From Tubulanus polymorphus (Eukaryota; Nemertea; Palaeonemertea; Tubulaniformes; Tubulanidae), in the NCBI RefSeq assembly GCF_964204645.1, contig NC_134034.1, positions 11,990,462 through 12,054,461 of the forward strand: a stretch of 64,000 nucleotides of DNA. Direction: 5' to 3'. The position numbers and the translations under genes were made by a program. Below, piece after piece: positions 2,601 through 62,340 of the stretch (position 1 is the first letter of the stretch; every line of letters starts with the position of its first letter). The notes under the pieces are model-generated. The model worked only from the letters and a program-made list of their open reading frames with translations, searched no databases and was not told the origin of the DNA.

Positions 2601-4580
2601 GCGGTCGAGCGATAAGGTTACAGTGACGCCTGTAGCAGCTTGAATAGAATTGAGTCAAATGAGTCATTATACTCTCTAGTTTTTCATCAAAATTGTCGCT
2701 TTTCTTCCAATTCGATTCACTTTAGTTGACTTCAACTTGAATTCTTGCAACTTATGGCTGATTCCTTTGAAAATGAATTTAGAACATTTTAGAATGCCAT
2801 ACGTAATATCGTATACGTCATATCGGCCTTTTAGCTGTTGCGTTTTCTTGAGTAACGTTTGACGTCCACTGTGACACGCTATGACGTCATTGGTACGTAG
2901 CTCGTAAAGCTATGAACCTAGCTATGTTATATTACTGTATTTCAGAGAAATGATATTAAAATATCCATTATTTTAGCGACTATAAACATGAAAGAAAAAT
3001 ATGGCAAACAATTTCCTAGTGTTTACGATGTTAGTTTTCCGTGCGGGGTGTCACAGGGTTCCTCTCTGGTATTCAATACACGATTCAAACTCGAATGAAC
3101 CTTTTAAACACAAACATCTGAACACATGAAAATAAATTACACTTCGCAAAATGCGATTAATCTAATTGTGAATTTTTGCTTCAAGATATAAAACAATTAC
3201 GTTTTTCAATACGTCACTCAAACTTGAATGAACCTTTTAAATGCGAGAATTTAAACAAGGGGAAAAATTTGAAAGGAATGTTCATTTTCTGAACATTTTC
3301 AGTGATACGCAAACATGATAACCACGCAATAACCTTGGTAAAATAGGGGTGTACCCGATACCCCTTCTAAATCTGCCCTTGTCAAACATTTAAAAATTAC
3401 AATCCGTGCAATAATAATATAAGATGAAAACAATGATGTTCTTCAGATTGCAGTATCACATATAGATGACGTACACACGTTGGTATTCGACAGAGAAGAC
3501 CGTTGTGTGTAAATGTGTAGAGATTTAATTAACCTTATACAAGGTTGAGACTTGTCGTGGCCGTGTTGACAATGTTATCATAAAATCGGATAACTGGGGA
3601 GAGAAATTCCCGGTAATTTTACGACCCAGCCCATATACGATCGAATCAGAGATAGATAGAAAACCCGTCACCCGGCCAGATCGGAGAGTGCCGATAAAAA
3701 CCAATCCGGCTAGATTGTGTGTATAAAATAGCGACGCAGCGACACTGGTAGCAGTGATGGTGATAACACAACCGCGTTAGTATTAGTTCACTTTCATCTG
3801 GATGTTTTAAGATTTGATTCTGCAGCGAACGACTACTGTAGAAATCGAGTGTGATGTGCACGTAATTACATAGGACAAGCGACCAGCGTGTTCATTACTC
3901 AAATTACCGACCAAAAAGTAGGTATTCTATTCATTTAACTTGTTGACTCCGAAATTAGATTCCGAATTTGTTAATTTGAAAATGATTGTTTCTGCTACAA
4001 GTCTAGTGAATTCAGAGATTGCTCATATACAACTCGTAGTTGAAACGTACGTTTTTACAGGTTGCTGTAGAGGCCGCCATTTTGTTCTATTGTTGCACGA
4101 ATTTTTTTCTCCTTTTGAGAAAAAACAACATCTTTCTAGATATCTATTCTATCCGTTCTAACAGCGAAGATCTCTTAGTTTTTCGAGGATTTGTTAGAAA
4201 TTAATGTATCTTTGTTTGTGTGTAGCTGGTTTTGTATGTAGAGAGCTCCGTGGAATATTTAGCACATGTTCGCGGCCAAACGATGAAACGATGGCTAATA
4301 ACATTATTATCTAAAATAAACTTGATAGTTGTGTCGTCTGTCGCGACCTTGGTTGATGTCATGGGACAGATTATTTCAAATTATTTTCAACAGAGACGCA
4401 GTCTAACCCCCTATGACATCACGAAATACCTCAAGTTTCCGGGTAACCAGAGATTTAGGTGTGTGGATATGCTTCGCTGATGTCATGGGGGGGGGGTTGT
4501 GTGCCGAAGGATCAAGGTCAGTTGAGTGTTCGGTTCCTGGAAACGTAAAATGTCGTAATGTTTCATTTCGTTATTTTTTA

Positions 4581-4583
4581 CAG
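4581..4583 (+). other. Splice acceptor upstream of the GPCR start codon
   Basis: A pyrimidine-rich run ends in ACAG at 4580-4583, and the start codon follows 11 bases later at 4595. This implies a non-coding 5' exon somewhere upstream and a coding exon that starts at 4584. The 5' exon itself could not be located. Confidence 0.6.
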
Positions 4584-4594
4584 CAACTTCCGTT

Positions 4595-5821
4595 ATGACG
4601 GGGAGACACCTATCGTTCGACTCGGAAATCACTCGTTCGGGGAATATCGTAAACGAGACCGACGAATCACGTGTTTCGAACTCGACAATGACGCACAGCA
4701 GTGGCGGTATCGATTTTTCCACCGGTTGGGTCGCTATCCTCCCGGCCGGTATACTAGGCCCGGTCGCTAAAGATATGACCACGTGGCAAATATGGGTCAT
4801 CGTCGCTGTAGTAACGATTTTATTTTTCGCCATTGTCGTCGGCAACAGTCTCGTGATTTTCGCTTTCGTTAAATTCCCGCGCCTGCGCACCGTGACGAAC
4901 CTGGTCGTACTGAGTCTAGCCGTCAGTGATCTGATTATGGGATTCTCGATGCCGTTCACGATATTTCTATCCGTGTTTCCGCACTCGAAACTATTTTCCA
5001 CCGTTTACCAGTGTTTGTTGCCGTTTTGCGTAATGGCCGCCGTCAGTTTCGCCTCGATCACGAACATGTACATCGTCACCGTCGATCGATACTGGGCGAT
5101 ATGTTACCCGTTCAGATATACGGCCGTTATGACGAAACGGCGAGCCACGGCGGCCATCTCCGGCGCCTGGTGTTTTTCGTTTTCGTTCGGTTTCGCGATG
5201 CCGATGCTCTGGAATAAAGGACCGTTTGACGAGGGCGAGGAGTGCACGTTCAGGAACGCTATGTCGGACGAATGCGCTATTGTAGTAGTGGTAGTCGCCG
5301 CATCGTTGGTCGTACTGATGGTAGCGCATTACACCCGTATCGGATGCATCGCTTCCGAGCAGATGCGCCGCATCGCGGCCACGCGGGTTAACGCCGTCGG
5401 TGAACACCAGGCGGCGCATTCGTCACGGCGTATGATAAAAGACCGCAAGGCGGCGTGCTCGATAGCTATTATTATCGGAGCGTTTATCATTCTATGGATG
5501 CCGATGATGATTTTCCTACTGGTAGAAACAGCGCCTGCTAAAGATTTAAACATTCCCGATTTGAAATTCACTCGTCTGCTCCTCGGCTGTGTGGCCATTT
5601 CGAATTCGTGCGCGAATCCGATAATCTACGCACTGCGCATGTCCGAGTTTCGTTCGGCGTTCGGTCGTCTGGTGAAGGTGAACTGTTGTTGCAGACGAAA
5701 AGCGATGCTCGATTTTGAGCAGTCGAGTAGTTCCGGTTCCGGCGAAGCGAATCGGGCTCCGAGTGGTCATTGCGCTACAGTAACAGAACACGTGAACCCT
5801 GCCTTCCAACCCGAGTCGTGA
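4595..5821 (+). CDS. Class A (rhodopsin-like) GPCR, adenosine-receptor-like
   Basis: A 408-residue seven-helix plasma-membrane receptor in a single coding exon. The extracellular N-terminus is about 60 residues with N-glycosylation sites at N20 and N29. Visible hallmarks: N84 in TM1 (VVGNSLVI), D112 in TM2 (LAVSDL), C140 at the top of TM3, DRYWAICYPFRY at 164-175, C217 in loop 2, LWMP at 300-303 in TM6, and NPIIY at 341-345 followed by ALRMSEFRSAF. C364-C366 are likely palmitoylation sites. Counting back from R165, position 3.32 is Met, so the amine-binding Asp is missing and an aminergic receptor is unlikely. DRY followed by PFRY, the PMLWNKG loop and the NPIIYALRxxEFR helix 8 all recall adenosine receptors. 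The ligand is not proven; other MECA-cluster or orphan receptors are possible. The start is the first ATG after the splice acceptor. Confidence 0.9.
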   Translation: MTGRHLSFDSEITRSGNIVNETDESRVSNSTMTHSSGGIDFSTGWVAILPAGILGPVAKDMTTWQIWVIVAVVTILFFAIVVGNSLVIFAFVKFPRLRTVTNLVVLSLAVSDLIMGFSMPFTIFLSVFPHSKLFSTVYQCLLPFCVMAAVSFASITNMYIVTVDRYWAICYPFRYTAVMTKRRATAAISGAWCFSFSFGFAMPMLWNKGPFDEGEECTFRNAMSDECAIVVVVVAASLVVLMVAHYTRIGCIASEQMRRIAATRVNAVGEHQAAHSSRRMIKDRKAACSIAIIIGAFIILWMPMMIFLLVETAPAKDLNIPDLKFTRLLLGCVAISNSCANPIIYALRMSEFRSAFGRLVKVNCCCRRKAMLDFEQSSSSGSGEANRAPSGHCATVTEHVNPAFQPES

Positions 5822-20300: not shown

Positions 20301-20650
20301 TAGTCCATGGTAAAGGTCGCAAGGACATAGCAATCACGTATTGTTTTAGAAGGTGAAATATGTTTTTCATATTTCGAATTGCAGTTCCAACATTTCGTTT
20401 GTTTGTCTTGCTCGAAGTTGTTCGGAGCTTGGTTTCGGCCAAGCTTGAGTCATTGAACCTCATGACAGGACCGCGGGCCTTTAAAGTGTTGGGAAAGATT
20501 CCTTTCAAAATAAGATGTCAAATAAACTTGACATGAACCTATATAGAATGTAACTGACCAACTGTGCAGCTGGACCCCACTATGCTTGTAGCTATGATCT
20601 AGATCTTTGGTATGTTTGTGCATTCTAACGATTATGATTTTTGTGTAATT
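14310..20650. other. Intergenic DNA upstream of NeuroD
   Basis: No coding exon is supported. It must contain the non-coding first exon, promoter and intron of the NeuroD gene, which could not be pinpointed. Visible items are TGACGTCA palindromes at 15411 and 16016, a run of G at 18162-18175, the family-C2 array at 17567-17760 and a sequence near 19922-19947 that recurs at 29420-29445. A 95-codon minus-strand frame at 16149-16436 was not recognised. Confidence 0.5.
17567..17760 (+). repeat. Family C2 tandem array, ~60-bp unit
   Basis: Three to four copies of a unit with GGATCCAGTTTCACAGTTG, TGTGGGTTTAA and TTNAACT, ending near GTGAACTGGGTCC. It shares the end motif of the family-C MITE and is the inverse of the array at 24418-24725. 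Confidence 0.65.
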
Positions 20651-20654
20651 TCAG
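20651..20654 (+). other. Splice acceptor before the NeuroD coding exon
   Basis: TAATTTCAG ends at 20654 and the start codon lies 26 bases downstream. This matches the common NeuroD gene structure with an intron in the 5' UTR and an uninterrupted coding exon. Confidence 0.65.
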
Positions 20655-20680
20655 GTTTTCATTTTTGGTTTGTCGAGAAA

Positions 20681-21898
20681 ATGCCCATTAAAAGCGAGAC
20701 GGACTCGGATGCCGCGTCGAGCATCTTACTCGATCTGGAGGACGACATGCTTCTCGAGAATTTAAACGACGAATTCCTGGCCGCGCAGAGTCTCGACGTC
20801 GCCGACGACGACGAACAGACTAAAGACAACTCGGACGATAGCGGCGAGAACAAGCCGAAAAAACGCGGACGCAAGAAAAAAGACGACAACAACCCGGACG
20901 AACCGAAAATACCGAAAAAACGCGGACCGAAAAAGAAAAAAATGACGAAACAGCGAATTTTCAAGTTGAAAGTACGACGCGTGAAAGCGAATACGCGAGA
21001 ACGTAACAGAATGCACGGTTTAAACGACGCGTTAGATGTTTTACGTGAACACGTTCCCTGTTACAGCAAAACTCAAAAACTATCGAAAATAGAAACTCTC
21101 CGTCTGGCGCGGAACTACATCGACGCGCTGGCCGACATTTTGAAAGCCGGTCGTAAACCGGATACGATCGCGTTCGCGAAACGACTATCGAAAGGACTAT
21201 CGCAGAACACGATGAATCTGGTGGCTGGGTGTTTGCAGCTGAATCCGCGAACGTTGTTACCGGATAACGAACTGGCGAAACAGTATCCCGGATGCAATAT
21301 GTACCAGCAGCCGATGACCGGGTTCAATCCGAACGGGATTTCATCATTACTCGGGTTCCCGCCGTTCTTCCCCGGAGGTATGCCGCAGGACGTCCATCAT
21401 CGGCCGCAAATGCACTCTCCGCCGCTCGTGCCTTCCACAATCTGCAATAACAACAATCCGTATTCGCCACCAGCGCCTCTACCGGTCGCTAATAACATTA
21501 TGACGACATCCAACGCGAACCTGATGACGTCACGAGCGTCGCCTGTGATGTCCGGCGCGCCGATGATGCCCCCTAGCGGCGTGTCGACGCTCAGCCCGAT
21601 ACACGCCGATAATTTCGTCGCAGATTTGCCGACCGGGTCGATGACGTCATCGACGAACTATCACGTGCCGTTCGTATCCGGACAACCGAATCCGAACGGG
21701 CGATTGTTGACCGGTAATTACCATGACAACGACGTATACGTCAACAACGCGATCGGTGCCGACATGGACGCTATGCAGTACATGAAAAACGTTCCCATTA
21801 ACGGACAATCGTCAGTGCCCCCTTGCGGAGCTGACATGAACATGTTTCAAACTCAAGGTCATTGCTTGGGTATGTTCAATTACGATGGTCAATTTTAA
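20681..21898 (+). CDS. NEUROD: Neurogenic differentiation factor (NeuroD family bHLH transcription factor)
   Basis: A 405-residue nuclear DNA-binding protein that, as a heterodimer with E-proteins, activates neuronal or endocrine differentiation genes at E-boxes. Residues 1-55 are acidic. Residues 56-95 hold two Lys/Arg blocks (KKRGRKKK and [12 protein letters not shown]), a likely nuclear signal. The bHLH spans about 99-154, with the basic region [17 protein letters not shown] and helix 2 containing [15 protein letters not shown]. The Neuro_bHLH region just after it ([20 protein letters not shown]) is diagnostic of NeuroD rather than neurogenin or Atonal. The tail is rich in Pro, Asn, Met and Ser and ends in a short aromatic motif, as in activation domains. 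The start is set at ATG 20681 because an in-frame upstream extension crosses a splice acceptor. It is intronless in the coding part. Which vertebrate NeuroD paralogue it matches is not meaningful for an invertebrate single copy. Confidence 0.95.
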
Positions 21899-49274: not shown

Positions 49275-49789
49275 ATTCTTAGCACTAAGAAATCTACTTA
49301 ATATTTAAAAACTACGTAGTTTATTTTGACTAACTGGAATTTTCCCAATTGAAGCAGCGGTGGTTTAGTCATCTTGTGACAAATATTTCAAGGATATCGG
49401 AAAACTGTAAATCGATCGATTTGAATTTGATGCCGTGATGAATTCATAAATTAGACCCAATCAAATTTGATTATACCGCACTGTACCTTAAAAACCGACC
49501 GGAGCCGACTGACTGGAGCCGACCGCAACAGACTGAAAAAACCAGGCGGCGCTAAATTCGAGAGTCAAGAATCAAGTAATTTACTTTATATGGCCTTAAA
49601 GTTCCACGATAGGTTCGGCTGGCGCTACTGGCGCGTATTCAAGGTAAATCCATTCAACAATAGAGACACAATTGCGGTTTTTCAGAGTTGTTGATATCAT
49701 TCTGACACGCGCTATTGAATACGTCACCGGCTTATCACGGTGTACACGAGCATATAGACCATTCACCTCTGCACACTCACACTGTGAAC

Positions 49790-49870
49790 ATGCTACCGTG
49801 GATTCTCCTCCTGGCGATTTTCGCTGCGCTCCTGCTCCTGTTCCTGCTTCCTGAGGAACGACGTCTTTAT
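49790..49870 (+). CDS. Candidate one-helix membrane micropeptide start
   Basis: ATG at 49790 opens a frame with the strongly hydrophobic stretch WILLLAIFAALLLLFLL (residues 4-20) followed by PEERR, i.e. a short luminal N-terminus, one membrane helix and a charged flank. The frame stays open past 49870 but then runs into LINE-derived sequence, so the true exon end is unknown. If spliced in phase 0 to the acceptor at 50818, a tail rich in D, E, R and K would follow, giving a protein of about 50 residues. No homologue recognised; a chance ORF or a signal-anchor exon of another gene is possible. Confidence 0.25.
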
Positions 49871-49959
49871 GTTTTATGTGTTACTGTTCGTCTCTGTGCT
49901 GTCCTGTACTGTTCTGTGTTTATTAATCCGTTCTATTTTTCAGCATTTAATCCGTTTTA

Positions 49960-50260
49960 TTTTTCAGGGCCGATTTCTCTGTCGAATTTCAACGTTTGCT
50001 GGAACAAAACTAATGTCCGAAAGCGTCAGCTCTCCTTCACCGGCCATGTGTCGAGGATGTCAGACAAAGAGTCGGTCAGGAAATTCTGCCCTCTACACGC
50101 CCTCATACGGAACACGAAAACTAGGATGACGAGGCCTCACTGCCCCCACCTATCTACAAAGTGTGCTGAGTGATGTCAATGACGGGCATATCTGTGGGAT
50201 TGCGCGGGATACAAATGGAATGGTTATACTGGATTGTCACGCTACTAGCATTCATTGTGT
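49960..50260 (+). pseudogene. LINE reverse-transcriptase C-terminal remnant (plus orientation)
   Basis: Frames read NVRKRQLSFTGHVSRM and, after a frameshift, ALYTPSYGTRKLG, then LSDVNDGHICGIARD. This is the R-x-L-x-F-x-GHV-x-RM ... Y-x-P-x-x-G-x-R pattern at the C-terminal end of non-LTR retrotransposon polyproteins. It is frameshifted and lacks the catalytic domain, so it is dead. The sequence behind it (50275-50510) holds short repeats with GATGATTCTACTGTCACGCT. Confidence 0.65.
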
Positions 50261-50274
50261 CCTTGTGACCGCCC

Positions 50275-50510
50275 GGATGAGGGATGATTCTACTGTCACG
50301 CTCTTTGTTTCTGGTATTCTGAGTCGACTGAGGGATGATTCTACTGTCACGCTCTTTGATTTCTAGTTTCAGTGCTAGTTTTCATTGTGTCCTTGTGATA
50401 ACCCCGGTCAGTGGATGAAGTCTCTCGTCGGCTTGTGAGTGCTAGTTTCATTGTGTCCTTGTGACAACCTCGGTCAGTGGATGAAGTCTCTTGTCACGCT
50501 TTTGGGTGCT
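50275..50510 (+). repeat. Short tandem repeats behind the LINE remnant
   Basis: GAGGGATGATTCTACTGTCA occurs at about 50279 and 50330, and GTCAGTGGATGAAGTCTC at about 50407 and 50471, with TTCATTGTGTCCTTGTGA also repeated. It may be the 3' end of the same LINE. Confidence 0.6.
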
Positions 50511-50813
50511 AGTTGAGATCCTGAATCTCAACCCGGTCAAGCTGGTTGTACTGCGCTATTTGTGTTTCGTGCAATTTTACAGGTGTGTCAGTTACTGACG
50601 TCGCCCAGTACATCCTGCAGTTAGATGGGGAATGTGAGGCTTTGTCAATCTGGTTTTCGTGTTCTGTGTGAGGGCGTGTAGAGGGCAGTATATTCCTGGC
50701 TGGCTCATTGTCTGGTGTTCTCGGCATGTGACCGGCGACGGAGAGCTGAAAAGCTTTCGAACATTAGTTTTGTTCCGTACCAGGTTTTCATCGCTCTTCT
50801 CTTTTTTTTTCAT
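50510..50813 (-). pseudogene. Second LINE remnant, inverted relative to the first
   Basis: On the minus strand it reads NKTNVRK, then CPLHALTQNTKTRLTKPHIP, matching the same frame of the first remnant (NKTNVRK, CPLHALIRNTKTRMTRPH). The two copies face each other over about 240 bases and could fold into a long stem. It is frameshifted and inactive. Confidence 0.65.
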
Positions 50814-51339
50814 TTCAGGACTCCCAAGATGAAGAAGATGCTGAAGGCGACTACAGAAGATGGCGAAAAAAGAACACTGAATTCAGCAATATTGAAAGTT
50901 AAGTTGATCCATGTGTAAATTACAATGTATGATACAGAAAGGATTGTGTAACTACAGAATATCGTTCTTTTACTCATTTCAGGTTAATCCGGAAAGGCCC
51001 ATCTTAAATCTACCCACTAGAAGTGCCCACAAAAGACTCCACGTTGAATGAACCAAACACCAAAAGACCTGAGCAACCAAACCTGGCAGTCTCATCCTGC
51101 ATGGCAACAGGAATGCATACATACATAAAGCTAAGTTGATTTTTCATATCTGGGGTAGAAGGCATAGGCACTGGTGAGGATACAGACGCTGGTCAAACTC
51201 ACCATCTCCGCACTACTTTATTGAAGCTCTATGGCCGGTATGTTGTTAAAAGTAAATTGAAATATAGCTATGGCAATGATTGCTTGAGTATTTACAATAT
51301 TAGATGAAATGATTGAGTGAGGTCCCTTGAACATTCTTT

Positions 51340-53470
51340 GGTCTGATAATTAAAGGTAGATTGGTCAGTTATTGATTAAAAGATTTTTTAAGTATGTACA
51401 ATTAAGGTAAATTCAATATCTTATGTGAAATTTTCCGAATGTACCGTAGATATTTCAGGATATATAGATAGGACAATTTACTAATTAACCAATCACTTAG
51501 ATATTAGCAATCATTCAATATCTTATAATGTTTGACGAGAATTTCTTCAGGTGTAGATATTTTAGGGCCCCTATATACATTTAGGCTGGCTTTACTAGTA
51601 AAGATATATATCAATTAAACTTAATCGTCGGTTAATAGATTTTTTTACAAATAATATATTGATACATATGTCATTTATAAACATTCAGTCACTTTACAGT
51701 ATATATTATATGCTGCTTTACCCATTGCATTAATGAATTCCTGGGGGAAAGATGTATGAAATATTGTCTAGGGCTCTATCGAGATCTGGTGTGATATATA
51801 TGGGGAAAACTATGGACTGCGGGTCTTTTAGAAACTGTGATTAGGTCTCAGCACTTTGATAAATCTAGAATAAAGAAAGCTTTAATTAATCCAAATCATT
51901 CCCCAGAGCCATACTCTGTGCCTTGTTTTGGGCTATGATTATTGTTTAACTGACAATCATCATATATATATAGCTAGGAAAAATTGCTCATTAACCAATG
52001 GCTTAGATATCCACAATTAAGATGAATTTAATATTTCATGTAAGATCAAAAACTATTTATATGCTATGTATGAAATAATTTATATGTGATACAGGTTCAT
52101 TATAAATATCATTAAACTGGCAATTGAGATATAGCTGATATATGTATATTTGAGCATATCTATATAATAAGTGAATCAGTCTCTTTGACTGATCAGTATT
52201 TATATTTCCAACTGCCGTACTTACGGCGACTGGTCATGCTCTTCAATATTGCCAAAAATTTACCAAAACCTTACTGATTCAAATGATATCTAAAAGCCAT
52301 AGGCCTACTGTGTGTCAAGTGACGCATAATAGATATATTTTATTAACTGACAATTAGAATATAGCTAAGATGAATTACTCATTAACGTATTACTTAGATA
52401 TCTACAATTAAGGTTAATTCAATTGTTATGTGAAATTATTTTTAATTCAAGTCCATTGACATTTAAAATGTAGCTGATACATGTGTATCTGAGCAAATTA
52501 ATTATTTATCTGTATCTAAAGTGAACCTATTGTGTCGTCATACAGCTGTATTAGTTTTGATACATATTGCCAAATTCATTTAACGCAGATTTACTTCCGA
52601 TTGAAGGGAGATAAAACAAATTTGTACGTGCAAAAATACATTCCTGAATTTGGAAGGGAGAATATTTCAATTTCACTGTGTATGTCAGATTGAGAGCCTT
52701 AATCTGACAGGATATCCTAAACTTAGGTCTTATTCCTCTTGCTAATAGCTCTCTTTTACTAACCCCTCTCCTTCAAACTATATTCCAGCATCATGTCTTG
52801 CACCGCACCAGGGAGGTCCGGTCATAACAAGGTCTTTCGATCCTTATACACAGTGTACTGTAAAAGATATAAAAGAACTAAAGATTACATAGCAATTCGG
52901 CTATAAGGCAATTTCTAATTTACGACTAAAAATGTGCTTTTATCTTAATTTCTGATGAATTCACCACATCTGAAATTCTACTCGTGTAGATTTTCAGGCT
53001 CCATATAAATATAAATATTGTTAACTGATAATTAAGATGTAGCTAGTATGATGACTCATTAACGGATCGCTTAGATATCTAGAAAATTAGTTAAAATTAA
53101 TTCAATATAATGAATATAAGTGAAAATTATTTAGAAAATAGCGCATTGGATGAGACGACTGTTTCGTGCAATGTTGTCTGTGTCTAACTGGGCCACATGT
53201 GTGAGGGATCTGTTGAATCAGTTAGGTTTTGGGGAATTCTGGGTTCGTTAAATTAGGTATCAAAAGCTCTGATGCAAAATTAGCAGTTGAAATAATGATG
53301 AATTCAAATTTATACCGGATTTGAAATTCTTCTCGTGTAGAAATTTCAAGCCCCAAATAAATTATTGTCCGAGACAATTTTGATTATAGCTAGGACATTA
53401 ATTGATTTATTAGGTATCTACGATAAAGATTAACTCAGCATCTTCATATAAGGTAAAAGTGCTCAAATCC
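51340..53470 (+). repeat. Decayed long tandem duplication (units ~350-650 bp)
   Basis: The ordered patches TTAACTGATAATTA, ATAGCTAG, TCATTAACN(5-7)CTTAGATATC, TACAATTAAGGTTAATTCAAT and ATGTGAAATTATTT appear near 51350-51500, 51945-52075, 52340-52480, 53020-53130 and 53360-53460. A second patch (GAAATTCTACTCGTGTAGA) precedes several of them. No ORF is shared, so this is non-coding. Confidence 0.65.
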
Positions 53471-54253
53471 AAACCATATGGGTTGATAAGACAACTGTAT
53501 AATTAACTATTGTTTTAGGCCTATACCCTATACAGGGTGTGTTTTAACTCTATCTCTTGTGCGTGGGATTTATTAAATCATTAAGGCTTTGCAGAATTCT
53601 GGATTTGTCAATGTGTGGGGATGATTCAAGGTTTCTTAAATCTGTAGAACCATGTTGCTTATAGGATCAGTGTGCTCAATGCTGGCAGCGCACTCACTCT
53701 AGTTAGTTATATTATCATAATTACAAGATCATTGTATATATTTTACGTGCAATATTTAGAATTACTGAAATGGATGAGAATACCATTCACTGGGCACAGA
53801 TGTCACCATCTGTGGGTAGAAAACATATCTCTTAAAGGTTATTAATTGACGATGAAGTTAATTTGATAATATGAACATGGTTAAGCTGACAATCGAAATG
53901 TATATAGGGGGCCATATTACTAGCAAGTTTGCACTATATGATGGGCCTGGGTTTTAATAAAAGCCTAATGGCCACTGGGTGTTTAGCACCCATGGAAGAA
54001 AAACATCAAGAATTTCTGAAGATAGAAGAAGAGAAACTACAGTACAAAAAAAATCTGAACAGATTGATTATGCATTATTAAATTTGCTGTAACTCTGGTA
54101 TTCCCCAAGATACCTAGAGATGCTTTACCCGAATTGTTGTTAAACTGTAATAATCAATATCAGATATCTAGAATGAATAAAGATTAATTAATTGAATCGT
54201 TTGATAATTGACTATTATCAAAATCTACTTTCCGGTCCACATTGCTGATCTTA

Positions 54254-54267
54254 TATATATATATAGG

Positions 54268-54331
<64 letters not shown>
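54254..54331. repeat. (TA)n microsatellite
   Basis: A run of alternating T and A, broken once by AGGCC, about 75 bases long. It also produces the repetitive IY open frame on the minus strand. Confidence 0.95.
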
Positions 54332-54335
<4 letters not shown>

Positions 54336-54690
54336 GTATGAATTGACACGTGTTAATCATGATCAGTGATATTCGAAAGGTTTTTCTGCTCACAAGATTT
54401 TGCTCTTTTTTTCAGCTATACTATTAATCAACTAGTCATAAAATGTACAAAGTGATCTTCAACCTTGTAATGTAGATATTCCAAATCTCGATGTATTAAA
54501 ATAGGCAGTCAACTTAATTGACCCCAATCAGACGCTTGCCGGTTCAGACTGGTTGGAAGATTAATTGAATGAACCGGAACCGGATTTTCCAATTATGCGC
54601 TTGGTTTTAAAGAAAACAAAATTTATGTAAAATCGACCCCCGATCACACAACTATATCTGTACTTTGATTTCCGATTTTGAATATAAAAC

Positions 54691-54838
54691 TAGACAAAAT
54701 TTTTCAACCTTGTAAACTTTCGGACTATTTACATGAAAAAAAGACCCATGAAATGTAAAAAACTTAGACAAAATTATTCAACCTTGTAAACTTTCGGACT
54801 ATTTACATGAAAAAAGACCAAATATTGTAAAATATAGT
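54691..54838 (+). repeat. 74-bp direct duplication
   Basis: TAGACAAAATTTTTCAACC through ACATGAAAAAAAGACC at 54691 recurs at 54765 with a few changes, just before the satellite array. Confidence 0.85.
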
Positions 54839-54899
54839 TATTTCCAAAATCTCAATGTATTAAATTAGGCAGAAAAAAAGTTATATGAAAAAAATATGT

Positions 54900-56450
54900 A
54901 AAATTAGACAACCAACATAGGAGACCCTCGCCGATAATGAACCCGGCAATCATAAAAGGTAACTTAATATAGATAGAATTATTGCGATAAATTCTCATTG
55001 AAAAATTTGTCATTACAGGATAACTTCTTTTAATCATTGCAGCTAAATTTCAACTATATGAAAACCCAGCTTGAGATCAACTACACATCCAAAGTCGACC
55101 AACTGGAACAGCGCACAGCCAGCTAGAATCAAATCATCAACCAATCAAATTAGATGATCCACGCCGATAACGAACCCAGCAATCATAAAAGGTAACTTAA
55201 TATAGATGGAATTATTGCGATAAATTCTCATTGAAAAAACTTGTCATTACAGGATAACTTCTTTTAATCATTGCAGCTAAATTTCAACTATATGGAAAAC
55301 CCAGCTTGAGATCAACTACTCGTCCAAAATCGACCAACTGGATCAGCGCACAGCCAACTAGAATCAAATCATCAACCAACCAACTTAGATGATCCACGCC
55401 GATAACGAACCCAGCAATCATAAAAGGTAACTTAATATAGATGGAATTATTGCGATAAATTCTCATTGAAAAAACTTGTCATTACAGGATAACTTCTTTT
55501 AATCATTGCAGCTAAATTTCAACTATATGGAAAACCCAGCTTGAGATCAACTACTCGTCCAAAATCGACCAACTGGATCAGCGCACAGCCAACTAGAATC
55601 AAAATCATCAACCCAGCAATCATAAAAGGTAACTTAATATAGATGGAATTATTGCGATAAATTCTCATAGAAAAATTTGTCATTACAGGATAACTTCTTT
55701 TAATCATTGCAGCTAAATTTCAACTATATGAAAACCCAGCTTGAGATCAACTACTCATCCAAAATCGACCAACTGGAACAGCGCACAGCCAGCTAGAATC
55801 AAATCATCAACCAACCAACTTAGATGATCCACGCCGATAACCAACCCAGCAATCATAAAAGGTAACTTAATATAGATGGAATTATTGCAATAAATTCTCA
55901 TAGAAAAATTTGTCATTACAGGATAACTTCTTTTAATCATTGCAGCTAAATTTCAACTATATGAAAACCCAGCTTGAGATCAACTACTCATCCAAAATCG
56001 ACCAACTGGAACAGCGCACAGCCAGCTAGAATCAAATCATCAACCAACCAACTTAGATGATCCACGCCGATAACGAACCCAGCAATCATAAAAGGTAACT
56101 TAATATAGATGGAATTATTGCAATAAATTCTCATTGAAAAAACTTGTCATTACAGGATAACTTCTTTTAATCATTGCAGCTAAATTTCAACTATATGGAA
56201 AACCCAGCTTGAGATCAACTACTCGTCCAAAATCGACCAACTGGATCAGCGCACAGCCAACTAGAATCAAAATCATCAACCCAGCAATCATAAAAGGTAA
56301 CTTAATATAGATGGAATTATTGCGATTAATTCTAAAAGAAATTGATTTACGGTACATGGAATTTATTATTATTAATGGTATATGAAGAATTGTGTATATT
56401 GTAAGATATTGTATAATTACAGGATATCTTCTTTTATTCATTTCAGCTTA
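54900..56450 (+). repeat. Satellite array with exon/mini-intron layout (~235-bp unit)
   Basis: Six units plus partial ends. Each has a TCTTTTAATCATTGCAG acceptor, a 117-150 base exon-like part and AAAAG|GTAACTT as a donor, then an 84-85 base intron-like part. Exon-like parts: 55043-55191, 55277-55426, 55512-55628, 55713-55861, 55946-56094, 56180-56296. Intron-like parts: 54959-55042, 55192-55276, 55427-55511, 55629-55712, 55862-55945, 56095-56179, then a longer 56297-56446. Units 3 and 6 share the same internal deletion of about 33 bases, indicating higher-order amplification. All three frames of the exon-like part have stops, so it is non-coding. Confidence 0.88.
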
Positions 56451-56700
56451 ATGACATCTATAAGAAAATGCTCAGCCTAAGATGTACTGGTGAAAAATGT
56501 ACTGATTAGAATAGCCAACAGAAGATTCCATCTTGAATTGAAATCATCAACTCCCACAGAAGAACCATCTTGAACTCGACTGCATAGGCCTAGTAGAAGT
56601 CCAGAGGAGAAATTTAGCCAGCAGCGGTTTATCGCCCAATGACAGATTTCTTCTACAATAGGTGGAGAAGAGACAATGCGTGTCTTACCGGTATATATGA
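56447..56700 (+). other. Possible terminal exon after the satellite
   Basis: Follows TTATTCATTTCAG, whose upstream 30 bases resemble both the satellite acceptor and the acceptor at 50982. No ORF of note; runs into the 40-bp array. Confidence 0.3.
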
Positions 56701-57525
56701 ACAATTATTCAGGAGCAGCAGGGACAATGTAAATATATTGTGAACAGTTATTCAGGAGCAGCACAGACAATGCGTATCTATAAACACTTGTTCAGGAGCA
56801 GCACAGACAATGCGTATCTTATAAACACTTGTTCAGGAGCAGCACAGACAATGTGTATCTTATAAACACTTATTCAGGAGCAGCACAGACAATGCGTATC
56901 TTATAAACACTTATTCAGGAGCAGCACAGACAATGCGTATCTATAAACACTTGTTCAGGAGCAGCACAGACAATGCGTATCTATAAACGCTCGTTCAGGA
57001 GCAGCACAGACAATGCATATCTTGTAAACACTTGTTCAGGAGCAGCACAGACAATTCGTATCTTATAAACACTTATTCAGGAGCAGCACAGACAATGCGT
57101 ACCTTATAAACACTTGTTCAGGAGCAGCACAGACAATGCGTATCTTATAAACACTTATTCAGGAGCAGCACAGACAATGCGTATCTTATAAACACTTGTT
57201 CAGGAGCAGCACAGACAACGCGTATCTTATAAACACTTATTCAGGAGCAGCACAGACAATGCGTATCTATAAACACTTGTTGCGTATCTATAAACACTTG
57301 TTCAGGAGCAGCACAGACAATGCGTATCTATAAACACTTGTTCAGGAGCAGCACAGACAATGCGTATCTTATAAACACTTATTCAGGAGCAGCAGAGACA
57401 ATGCGTATCTTGTAAACACTTGTTCAGGAGCAGCACAGACAATGCGTATCTTATAAACACTTATTCAGGAGCAGCACAGACAATGCGTATCTTATAAACA
57501 CTTATTCAGGAGCAGCACAGACAAT
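56698..57525 (+). repeat. 39-41-bp minisatellite, ~20 units
   Basis: The unit TTCAGGAGCAGCACAGACAA plus TGCGTATCTTATAAACACTT varies mainly in TATCTATAAA versus TATCTTATAAA and in CTTG versus CTTA. One unit near 57270-57300 is truncated. It is highly homogeneous, so young. Confidence 0.93.
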
Positions 57526-57529
57526 AGCA

Positions 57530-59330
57530 TATGTAAAGTATTGATTTATTTTGTGTATTACCTTTTTACAAACTAGTCTGATTGGTAACAAGGGTTTAAA
57601 AAAATCACTGTCTATTTGAAGGAGCGGAATAAACTGAAGAAATAGTTTTGATGTTGATAATTGAAAATTGAAGTTAGATAATTAGGCCTCTGGGTCTGAG
57701 AAGGAACTATTCATATTTGAATAATTTGAATTCGGTTTGTAAACAGAGGAGTCATGTCCTTTAAGTTCCTTCTTGGAGTCTCATGAAATTTACGCTCCAT
57801 TAATTGATGGTATTGATCGCGTTCAGCGTCTGGGTTCGACTCGTAAGTCGGTTGAAATACTCATAAACTGAGATCTGAAATCAACAGGATAGTTCAGATA
57901 ATCTTCATCCTTAGTTAAACATAGTTGAGATTGATTTGTAATAATGACATAGTTCATTGGTCTTTATTCCATTAATCTTAGAAATAGTGATTCATTTTAT
58001 ATTTCCTGAGAGTGAAAATAATTTAATGATTTGCATAGCCTAAATGTTGAAAAGGGAGAGCGTAGTCAGTTAAACAGTTGCAACTTTTAAACGCAATAAA
58101 GGAAGTTGGTACGTTATTAGTTTAGACTCCTAAACTCGCCCAGCAAGTTAATGGGTTTTGAATAAAGATGTTTTGAAAAGGATTCCTTGGCCAAAAAGTG
58201 AAGGGCCGCCCTTCAGTACAAACTGGCTTCGCCCCTCGAATATCATCACGTATATAGTTAAGGAAACCATATAATATTAGGCAGTGTTCTGTGTACAAAT
58301 AATAAGTTAATATACCAAAGTGTCGATGTATTTTTGATGCCATAATTTTAAGGCCCATTAAAGCGATTTGACTAATGAGTAGAATATCTCGATTTTCACA
58401 GGAGTTTTAGCATTGTGCTTCCATGTAGGTGATCATAGCTAGGTATATGAAACTTATATCGTAGTACATTGTATCCACAGAGGTATGAGAGGTAATACTA
58501 GGAATAATGTAATATAAAGGAATAAATAATAATGGCCAGCAATGATTTTGATTGTTTTAATTTTGTTTATAGCTGTTTTAACTTCTTTCATCGTTATCCA
58601 TATCATAAGGTTGAGTGGCTTTCAATGATCACTTAACTTCAAATCGGGGTGTTTAATTAGGAAGCGATTATTTAGGTGCAGCAGTGAATTTGTAGCACTT
58701 TTTTAAGTGAGGCCATAATTTTACCGCTAAAAAATTTCTGATGATGTAAATAGTAATAGATAGTACAAAATACATAGAACATAATCAAAAAAATAAATAA
58801 AAACTACATAACAAAATAAATAATATAAAAAAAACAAATGAAATTATAAAGTCATGAAAAATAAACAAAACCAACAAACAATTAGTTGATATAGGCCTTC
58901 ATCATCAGGAATTTTTTCTAATCAACTCAATCTAATTATTAAAGGTTCTTCTTTCATAGAACAACCTTCTCCGTGTTTCCCAACCTCTTGAGATCTTTTC
59001 TGTTGTTGTTTTAAGCGTTCTATCGGCTCAGTGATAAAAAAAACAAATAACCATAAACCTTAACTAAACCAAACACACTAAAAAATATCTGTTTCGATAG
59101 AATGCTTCAAATAACTGATGAAAGATCACGGCGTCCTTTTACCTATATATCACACCCTATCACTGCTGTAACTGTTAATTGTTTTAGGGATAATATCTGG
59201 GAGATACATTTTACTCTTTTTTAGAAAGAATGTTTAACAGCTATAAACGTGATTAGTTATCGATGGTAAAATTATTGTCATGTTTTCCCTGAAATAACGT
59301 TGTATTAAATGAGCGAACTGATAATGTTTG
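57530..59330. other. AT-rich non-coding DNA
   Basis: No gene is recognised on either strand. The stretch at 58760-59060 is very A-rich with AAATAAATAA-like runs. Confidence 0.6.
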
Positions 59331-59929
59331 TAAATCTTTAGTTAAGACAAGGTGCAGCGAAAATTCTAGTTTTCTAGTAAAAATGATGTTAATGAAAATG
59401 AAATTTAGAACTTTAAGTTAATTCTAAGCTTTCTAGGATTTGTCTCCAGTTTGAATGCTTTTATGTTACACTTTTTTTAAAATACAGTTCATTTGTTAAC
59501 TAGGAACTTACATGATAATTCCTCGAGTACATACTCGTCATTTCGCAATGTATTATTTTTGTCATGAGAATAAAATGACACATACATTTCATTATTCATG
59601 GTGAAACTTATCAATTGTTTAGTTAAGTTTATAGCAACTATCAAACTGAGGTCCTATCAAATAAAGTGTAGCAGTTCTTTTTATAAATGAGGATTTATGA
59701 ACAGTGTTGATTAGTAAATTGTCATGTTTTGATTGTCGGTTATACAATGTCTATATAAAGTTTATTTATTTTTCATAACTCATACATACAATGTTGGACA
59801 GGTGTTAGGTGCACTATATGGTTATGGAGGATCCAGTGCTAGCCAGCTGGCTGTGCTTAGAATTAAGGCACTAGATCATGTGCATGGTGCGTATATGGGC
59901 CTGATTCAAATCTGCACAAGAAGAATTTC

Positions 59930-60171
59930 AGGGTCCGATCTAAGGAATGAAAGCCACTTGCCCGGGGGGCAAGCATATCTGATATTTCGCTCGCCCCCTC
60001 CAAAAGCTACTTGCCCTACACATGCAGTTTGATTGGTCGCACTATCATCCATTGTATCGAGTGGGAAAAAAGCTTTGTGACATAAAATTGCACTAGCCCG
60101 GCGGACAAGTAATAATGATAACCTACTCGCCCTGATGAGAATATACTTGTCCCGGGCTTAGATCGGACCCT
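59930..60171. mobile_element. 242-bp fold-back element, GGGTCCGATCTAAG ends
   Basis: AGGGTCCGATCTAAG at 59930-59944 is exactly complementary to CTTAGATCGGACCCT at 60157-60171. CTTGCCCGGGGGGCAAG-like and CTTGTCCCGGG patches inside extend the pairing. Flanks GAATTTC and GCATTTC are similar but not an exact target duplication. There is no transposase. Confidence 0.8.
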
Positions 60172-61017
60172 GCATTTCAAGTATCGAAAAAGTTGTAGAT
60201 AATTGTAGATATCTCAGCAATCAGTTGTTTGTAATTTACTTAGCTATATTCAAATGGATAGTTGAACAATATCTATATGATGATACTCCATATATCTTGA
60301 TTAAAAAATACTTTGAGAACGTGACAATGTGTAGAAAATAATGTTGATAATGTTTGAAAATCGTGGGCAAAGTTGGAGAAACTCTAATTATCTTGTTAAA
60401 TAATGTTAATGAAAATAAAGATTGATTAGCTAATCTCAAGCTTTCCACAGTGAATCTGTAGTTTTAATGCTTGAATACAGTTCTGAGTTTACTCATTTGT
60501 AGAAATTACATGATACGCAATTTCGGTTTTCCTGTAAAAACAATGTTAATGAAATGAAATTAGAGATTGATTATTTGAGAGAGTGAATTTGTTTTATGTC
60601 CAGTTTAATGTTTACATTTTGGAGATATGTTATGCAGTTTTATGTATAAACAGAATATCCTAAATCTCACATTGTCATTTGAATAGTTGATATGGTAAAA
60701 TGCTTCATATTTCATGAAATAGCCAAGTGTCACTTATGCCCGGTGAGTGACTTCATGAATTGTCAAATTAATAGTCTTAGACATTCAGACTAGTCCCAAT
60801 TGTCAGTGTTTAATGGATCAAAGTTTACAATTCTTTGTTTAATTTTGTTATTTTCCTATTGATTCAAATTGTGTGAATCAGTTGCAGTGGAAATGTTTTT
60901 GGTAAATAAAACCTTGAAATACCTTGCATGATGTAGCATATGTGATATTAAAAGCTAGTAATTTTATATATTTTGGATAATCTAAGTCATTATAAGGCTA
61001 AAAATGATATCTTGTTT

Positions 61018-61145
61018 TTCCTGATCGGCCAGGTCATTTCATAGATCAGTGAAATTTGTAATCAGTTCACATTTCCATCCGCCGGGTCTGTTATGGTTAG
61101 CTTGATCATGAAAAAGTATTGTGAGGCCTAATGGGTCAACTTTAA
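61018..61145 (-). mobile_element. MITE family D, copy 3
   Basis: CCTGATCGGCCAGGTCATTTC, TGTAATCAGTTCACATTTCC, CCGGGTCTGTTATGGTTAGC, TTGATCATGAAAAAGTA and GGGTCAACTTT follow the order of the copy at 39786. Confidence 0.65.
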
Positions 61146-61275
61146 GGAGTAAAAATGTTAATCAGATTGATTACTTAAAATCTTACGCTTTCCAGAGTAT
61201 TTGGCCATGTTTATCTCTGGTTTTAGTGCGGGGAGCCATGGACATTTCTGTTCTAGAATTTATGGTTGGATCTAA

Positions 61276-61304
61276 CGAGCAATTATCTATTAGATAATTG
61301 CTCG
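61276..61304. other. Perfect 14-bp inverted repeat
   Basis: CGAGCAATTATCTA and TAGATAATTGCTCG face each other across one base. CCATGGACAT occurs on both sides at a distance, suggesting the core of a small insertion. Confidence 0.75.
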
Positions 61305-61479
61305 TAGGTTGTACCATGGACATATAAACTATAGATTATTGTTTATACGTCCTTGATTGGATTGTTTTTTGAAATCAGTCCACGTGTTTGAGGAACTTAC
61401 ACCATAATTCCTCGAGCATAAACCTGGCATTTTGTATAATTGTTGTATGAGAGTAAATATAATTGTTTGAGAGTCTCTA

Positions 61480-62340
61480 TTGTTTAGTTGATAAGCTACT
61501 CTGAACTTTGTAAGTTCACGGGTCTGTGGTTTTCATTGCAATCTTGCAATCCATCCCTTTTTTCAACCCTATAATCCCACTAACATGGTGCGGAGACGTT
61601 GTTTGTACACGTAATATCATAATAAAGACCTCAGCCTGTGTTTTATAGGATGTCAGTTGTTCTGGTTGGTTTTTAGGTAGTTTTTTATTAGTGTCCTATT
61701 TTTAATATGGAGAGGAGATTGGACTTGTAGAGGCGGTCCTGCTGTAGAATTACAGAATCCGCAGCGAGACCGGGCCCGCCGTCCGACTGTGCGCCAGATT
61801 TTTACCGTCATGTGCTGCCGCTATGATTTACATCGACGGTGAACGTGTGAACTAACCCTCCAGTGGGATATTCTTACCGCGGCACGCGAGTAATTAATTC
61901 AATTCAATTCTAATTTATTTCACGGAAAAGCGTCACATTATTACAAGTTAAACAATTCAAAAAATGAGAATAATATCTAAATTTACAAAATTGTCGCGTG
62001 CTTTTCTACGTGGGCCTTGCAAAGCCCTGTAGGCCGCTAGCGCAGGCGCCCAATGAGTTAGTTCGCGTATTCGCCGCCTACGATATGCATAGTGGCAGCA
62101 CCTGACGGTGGTAATTTCGGTTCGGCCGCTAGTTGGTAGCGATTTGTATTTAGTGAATGGAAATTCCACATTCAGGTTATTACAGTCTAAACTATCTTTA
62201 CAACAGTACGGGAACTCCTGTCAGGTTAACTGTCAGCTAGAGAGAGAGAGAACTCAACGAGGACTTACGCATTGAGACTTCTTCAGTTGTATTTAACTGA
62301 GTGGAATATATTTAATTGACTGACGTTTTGTCTTGAACAA
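61480..62340. other. Upstream region of the kinase-like gene
   Basis: A CG-richer segment around 61725-61880 could contain a promoter or first exon. At 61894-62190 a segment starts with TTCAATTCAATTCTAATTTATT and on the minus strand is open for 70 codons (RALQGPRRKARDN). The simple-repeat edge recalls a LINE 3' end in minus orientation, but no family motif is visible, so this is a guess. Confidence 0.35.

Follow-up and report, generated by a model that had tools for sequence, protein, structure and literature searches.

A dispersed, transposable-element-like repeat in the nemertean Tubulanus polymorphus carries a satellite in which every unit resembles an exon coupled to a short intron. We analysed one such array in a 64,000-nucleotide stretch of NC_134034.1, hereafter the window. 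The splice-flanked satellite is real, goes beyond chance and is spread more widely than a single window reveals. We assign a probability of about 0.55 to the reading that this is an element-borne satellite whose monomer came from an exon–intron piece of the element's transcript and that splicing of its RNA would join one unit to the next. This reading draws directly on the dispersal of the arrays, their element context, the homology of related pieces, the retention of splice motifs and the non-coding character of the exon-like parts. Transcription, splicing and the origin of the monomer as a real exon are what we infer from the sequence.

Satellite monomers are usually regarded as lacking the structure of a gene. 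Were these units spliced, constraint on splice sites would partly set both the period and the sequence of a satellite. The arrays, which differ in length across dozens of loci, would then form a natural series for the effects of repeated-exon number on an RNA. Even without splicing, the family is a clear example of an element that spreads satellite-like arrays.

Splice-like boundaries in every unit

The array consists of six tandem units of 233, 235, 202, 233, 233 and 202 bp, and is independently listed by TRF. In every unit, AAAAG|GTAACTT and CATTGCAG|C delimit an intron-like part of 84–85 nt and an exon-like part of 117–150 nt, with acceptor-like CATTGCAG terminating each intron-like stretch of ~85 nt. 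An earlier note on this DNA had described six units of ~235 bp; the number of units, their splice-like bounds and the lengths of their parts stand, but two of the units measure 202 bp.

All parts lie on the plus strand. A partial first exon-like segment (54907–54958) ends at the donor at 54959. Intron-like parts 1 to 6 then run from donor GT to acceptor end at 54959–55042, 55192–55276, 55427–55511, 55629–55712, 55862–55945 and 56095–56179 (84, 85, 85, 84, 84 and 85 nt). Exon-like parts 1 to 6 alternate with them at 55043–55191, 55277–55426, 55512–55628, 55713–55861, 55946–56094 and 56180–56296 (149, 150, 117, 149, 149 and 117 nt), the third with a 33-nt deletion that recurs in the sixth. The donor string AAAAGGTAACTT occurs seven times, at the six intron-like starts and with its GT at 56297, and the rest of the 64 kb contains no further copy on either strand. 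A diverged seventh acceptor ends at 56446.

We scored these boundaries with a simple splice PWM, weighted according to what is generally known of animal splice sites. When every GT in the window is ranked, unit donors fall within the top 1.2%; in the ranking of AGs, unit acceptors fall within the top 1.8%, and three single acceptors, at 50818, 50982 and 56446, reach the top 0.4%. No donor/acceptor pair of similar score was found on the minus strand of the array. The donor match is suboptimal at +5, which is mostly C.

Homologous single segments flank the array

Two segments of the same make-up occur outside the regular units. Upstream, an exon-like segment at 50819–50897 follows the strong acceptor ending at 50818 and leads into an intron-like segment at 50898–50982, a homologue of the satellite intron with a strong acceptor (TTTCAG) and a donor, AAA|GTTAAG, that scores poorly on the same PWM. 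Downstream, a diverged and longer intron-like part of 150 nt (56297–56446, acceptor TTTCAG at 56446) closes the array and is followed by a diverged exon-like part at 56447–56551 with ~71–72% identity to the units. Local alignment scores are 34 for the 50.9-kb against the 56.4-kb segment, 26 for the 50.9-kb segment against a unit and 51 for the 56.4-kb segment against a unit. The highest score among shuffles is 19, and the suggestion that the unit and both segments share an ancestor is thus borne out.

The two segments differ in how far their homology to the unit extends. At 56.4 kb it runs through both the intron-like and the exon-like part, whereas at 50.9 kb it covers the intron-like part and stops within a few bases of it at each end. 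At other loci the intron-like part is joined to different exon-like sequences, and exon parts vary between lineages.

An internal block of a dispersed element

The array lies inside a dispersed, transposable-element-like repeat that is non-coding and measures at least 8.5–12 kb. The satellite unit has at least 296 matches genome-wide, in arrays on contigs C1–C11, and among the matches listed for two combined queries these arrays occupy at least about 50 loci. Unit classes are 95–97% and 83–86% identical to the query, with more diverged relatives besides. The surroundings are dispersed repeats as well, including the array's left flank, its right flank and pieces at 50.8–51.1, 49.5–50.3 and 61–61.6 kb; three body pieces each have at least 40 scored copies, drawn from 156–1688 candidates.

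Extended copies define the element body in the window (49536–61623, plus strand). Eight examined copies align colinearly with the whole of 49.5–61.6 kb or a large part of it, mostly at 82–97%, and the position and orientation of the array within the body are constant in every copy examined. Two further repeats accompany it. A ~73-bp repeat on the left flank (54686–54883, plus strand) is present in two copies here and expanded in sister copies. A 41-bp tandem array of ~20 copies (56696–57525, plus strand) belongs to the same element and adjoins the satellite in most element copies. The earlier note suggested that the array may have grown from an exon of one local transcript at 49.5–56.7 kb. That proposal falls: the array, its 73-bp and 41-bp neighbours and their 12 kb of context are colinear at many loci.

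Most copies align up to 61598 and start at 49536, 49569 or 49639. Pairing left and right ends yields elements of 8.5–10 kb, such as C5:21738781–21748362, C4:24033999–24042483 and C1:562434–572552. In five paired-end copies, mutual similarity extends past both ends of the window copy, so that the latter is truncated or chimeric on either side; full elements run past these ends, so that the 8.5–12 kb is a lower bound. TIRs and TSDs were sought where the window copy ends, but these positions proved internal to longer elements.

Protein and RNA family searches were negative. ORFs of the element copies gave no Pfam match above cut-off, transposase, reverse transcriptase and helicase models included, and 48.5–62.5 kb gave no Rfam match above the gathering threshold. 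Near the end of one element copy (C7:5427000–5428000), an ORF resembles by eye what we take to be the start of Mediator subunit 27 (MSELNDNLMQSLHALQQLRSEVSHVFEQL...); it has no convincing Pfam match. An exon-like piece in the left flank (TTTCATTTCAG|CAGGTTAAG...) turned out to be an old fragment without a recognisable gene.

Some copies have features of their own. C11:10980754–10999937 contains two element copies in head-to-tail order, each with its own satellite array; the first stops at the position corresponding to 56403 and the next begins at 50763. A ~190-bp inverted repeat of ~78% identity (window 49990–50178 and 50586–50776) persists in the copies spanning this region, and is LINE-like by resemblance only.

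Amplification in two steps

Comparison of the six units records how the array grew. Unit 2 equals unit 3 apart from the 33-nt deletion, units 3 and 6 share that deletion and differ at 1 base, and units 4 and 5 differ at 2 bases. Sister arrays elsewhere in the genome have the short exon part in their last unit, measuring 117 nt at four loci (L022, L023, L024 and L052) and 116 nt at a fifth (L025). This terminal position implies that the deletion marks the ancestral terminal unit, and hence that a three-unit block ending in it was duplicated here. The two-step amplification read earlier from the shared deletion is upheld both by the unit comparison and by the last units of the sister arrays.

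Splice motifs in diverged copies

Splice-like positions are retained among diverged copies, in part beyond the rest of the unit. The two main classes differ at 24 positions, none of them among 31 splice-motif columns (hypergeometric P=0.028). Across 91 diverged unit hits, where identity averages 0.72, the window AAGGTAA reaches 0.94 and ranks among the top 1%. The acceptor 9-mer, at 0.77, is unexceptional because position -4 is free. Acceptor AG is retained in 0.92 of diverged hits, compared with a median of 0.60 for all dinucleotides, and donor GT at its fixed position in 0.78. Five intron-spanning hits seem to have lost the acceptor; four are misaligned, with ATTTCAG present, and one loss is real (L061). 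With the misaligned copies corrected, nearly all diverged units retain the acceptor AG.

The changes that do occur keep within splice-like sequences. The A and G of the acceptor are invariant in every ungapped diverged hit, and the base at -3 is C in 52 hits, T in 7 and A in 1. Donor +4 is A or G, with the variants GTAACT, GTAAGT, GTAGGT and GTAAAT. A terminal AG is kept by 160 of 163 distinct intron-like segments, and GT stands at the start, or one base before it, in nearly all segments. Their interior ranges from 65 to 106 nt across lineages with both ends retained, a comparison that leaves out end-gapped segments (5 of 189 hits). Independent lineages are few, with 6 clusters at 80% and 15 at 85%. 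Several blocks of exon and intron are as conserved as the splice motifs. Acceptor and donor core thus bear out the expectation that the sites would be better conserved than the remainder of the unit, but other columns equal them and the margin admits other causes.

Origin of the array and alternative readings

We propose the following course of events. An exon–intron piece of the element's own transcription unit would have become the satellite monomer; a homologous piece still stands single at 50.9 kb, and a diverged one at 56.4 kb. Arrays may then have formed from the monomer by unequal exchange, and the mobility of the element would have carried them around the genome. Splicing of the element's RNA would link successive units into a non-coding RNA with repeated exons of ~117–158 nt, their number varying by copy. 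Such splicing at the present day is a plausible prediction. A broader claim can be entertained tentatively, and we lean against it: that the element's arrays are spliced cassette-exon arrays, that dozens of loci thereby yield non-coding RNAs with repeated exons in variable number, and that splicing constraint shapes the evolution of the monomer.

The strongest competitor is that this is an ordinary satellite-like array within a non-autonomous mobile element, its splice-like ends being chance traits of a single ancestral monomer, kept by youth and homogenisation. We regard it as a serious possibility, though not the one we would choose. Element dispersal and homogeneity within classes are explicable without splicing, high motif conservation is common to other blocks, and the general layout is that of oyster HINE elements (PMC7492417). 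In a spliced retrocopy, AGCAATCATAAAAG would be followed directly by CTAAATTTCAACTA or CTTAATGACATCTATAAG. The 268 Mb genome has no match to either of these exon–exon junctions at up to 3 mismatches, and no processed copy was found. Few transcripts are retrocopied, so the lack of a spliced copy is weak evidence. Against chance ends stands the pattern of change, which is splice-like (an NYAG acceptor with -4 free, and drift at +4/+5 among donor-like sequences). Both ends also persist through lineages that change in length, and the single acceptors at 50818, 50982 and 56446 lie in the window's top 0.4%.

A reading in which the intron-like part is itself the mobile unit, introner-like and inserted into differing exon sequences along the element, would account for homology of the 50.9 type, which stops a few bases beyond the intron-like part, and for exon parts that vary among lineages. 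We consider it very unlikely: the 56.4-kb copy is homologous through the exon as well, and the examined matches all lie in the element family or in arrays, with none seen in a host gene among the matches listed. Least probable is that the units are decayed protein-coding exons in tandem: certain units, for example those with 117-nt exons, contain a single open frame, and the 79-nt exon at 50819 is open by eye, but the lengths of 165 exon-like parts spread evenly modulo 3 (51/51/63), a frame is open in 20% of them against 16% of shuffles, and element ORFs are without a convincing Pfam domain.

Relation to known systems

The spliced element-borne satellite proposed here shares features with three known systems. 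The first is Cg_HINE, the non-autonomous Helentrons of the Pacific oyster, which have conserved left and right modules and a central satellite-like array (PMC7492417). Like Cg_HINE, the family described here is a dispersed element with a central satellite-like array between conserved modules. It differs in having a monomer of ~235–243 bp with splice-like ends, a length of 8.5–12 kb or more and two further arrays. The likeness is one of layout; HINEs are further defined by subterminal inverted repeats and a short 3' palindrome.

The element and Helitron-type sequences differ in genomic position among the matches listed. The genome has autonomous Helitron genes, with 58 matches to Helitron_like_N that lie mostly in chromosome centres; the element lies in the arms. 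Among the matches listed, 86% of those to Helitron Rep are in the inner third of the chromosome, differing from element ends at Mann-Whitney P about 5e-17. In the outer third, among the matches listed, are 92% of left and 61% of right element ends.

The second system is the lncRNA FIRRE, in which the local repeat RRD supplies 7 of 13 human and 11 of 23 mouse exons (PMC4820808). Here too one repeat would furnish many exons of a putative non-coding RNA. Unlike the FIRRE repeats, which are discontinuous and at a single locus, the array here is tandem and dispersed. The third is introners, mobile-element-derived families whose near-identical members are the size of introns, often contain splice sites of their own and make introns in host genes (PMC9860276). 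The likeness is in the repetition of intron-sized sequences, which bring splice sites with them or recruit them, whereas the intron-like parts here lie inside one repeat family amid non-coding exon-like parts.

Elsewhere in the window are host genes that indicate a bilaterian animal, for a rhodopsin-family GPCR and a NeuroD-type bHLH protein, at 4559–5821 and 20603–21898, each with one long open frame.
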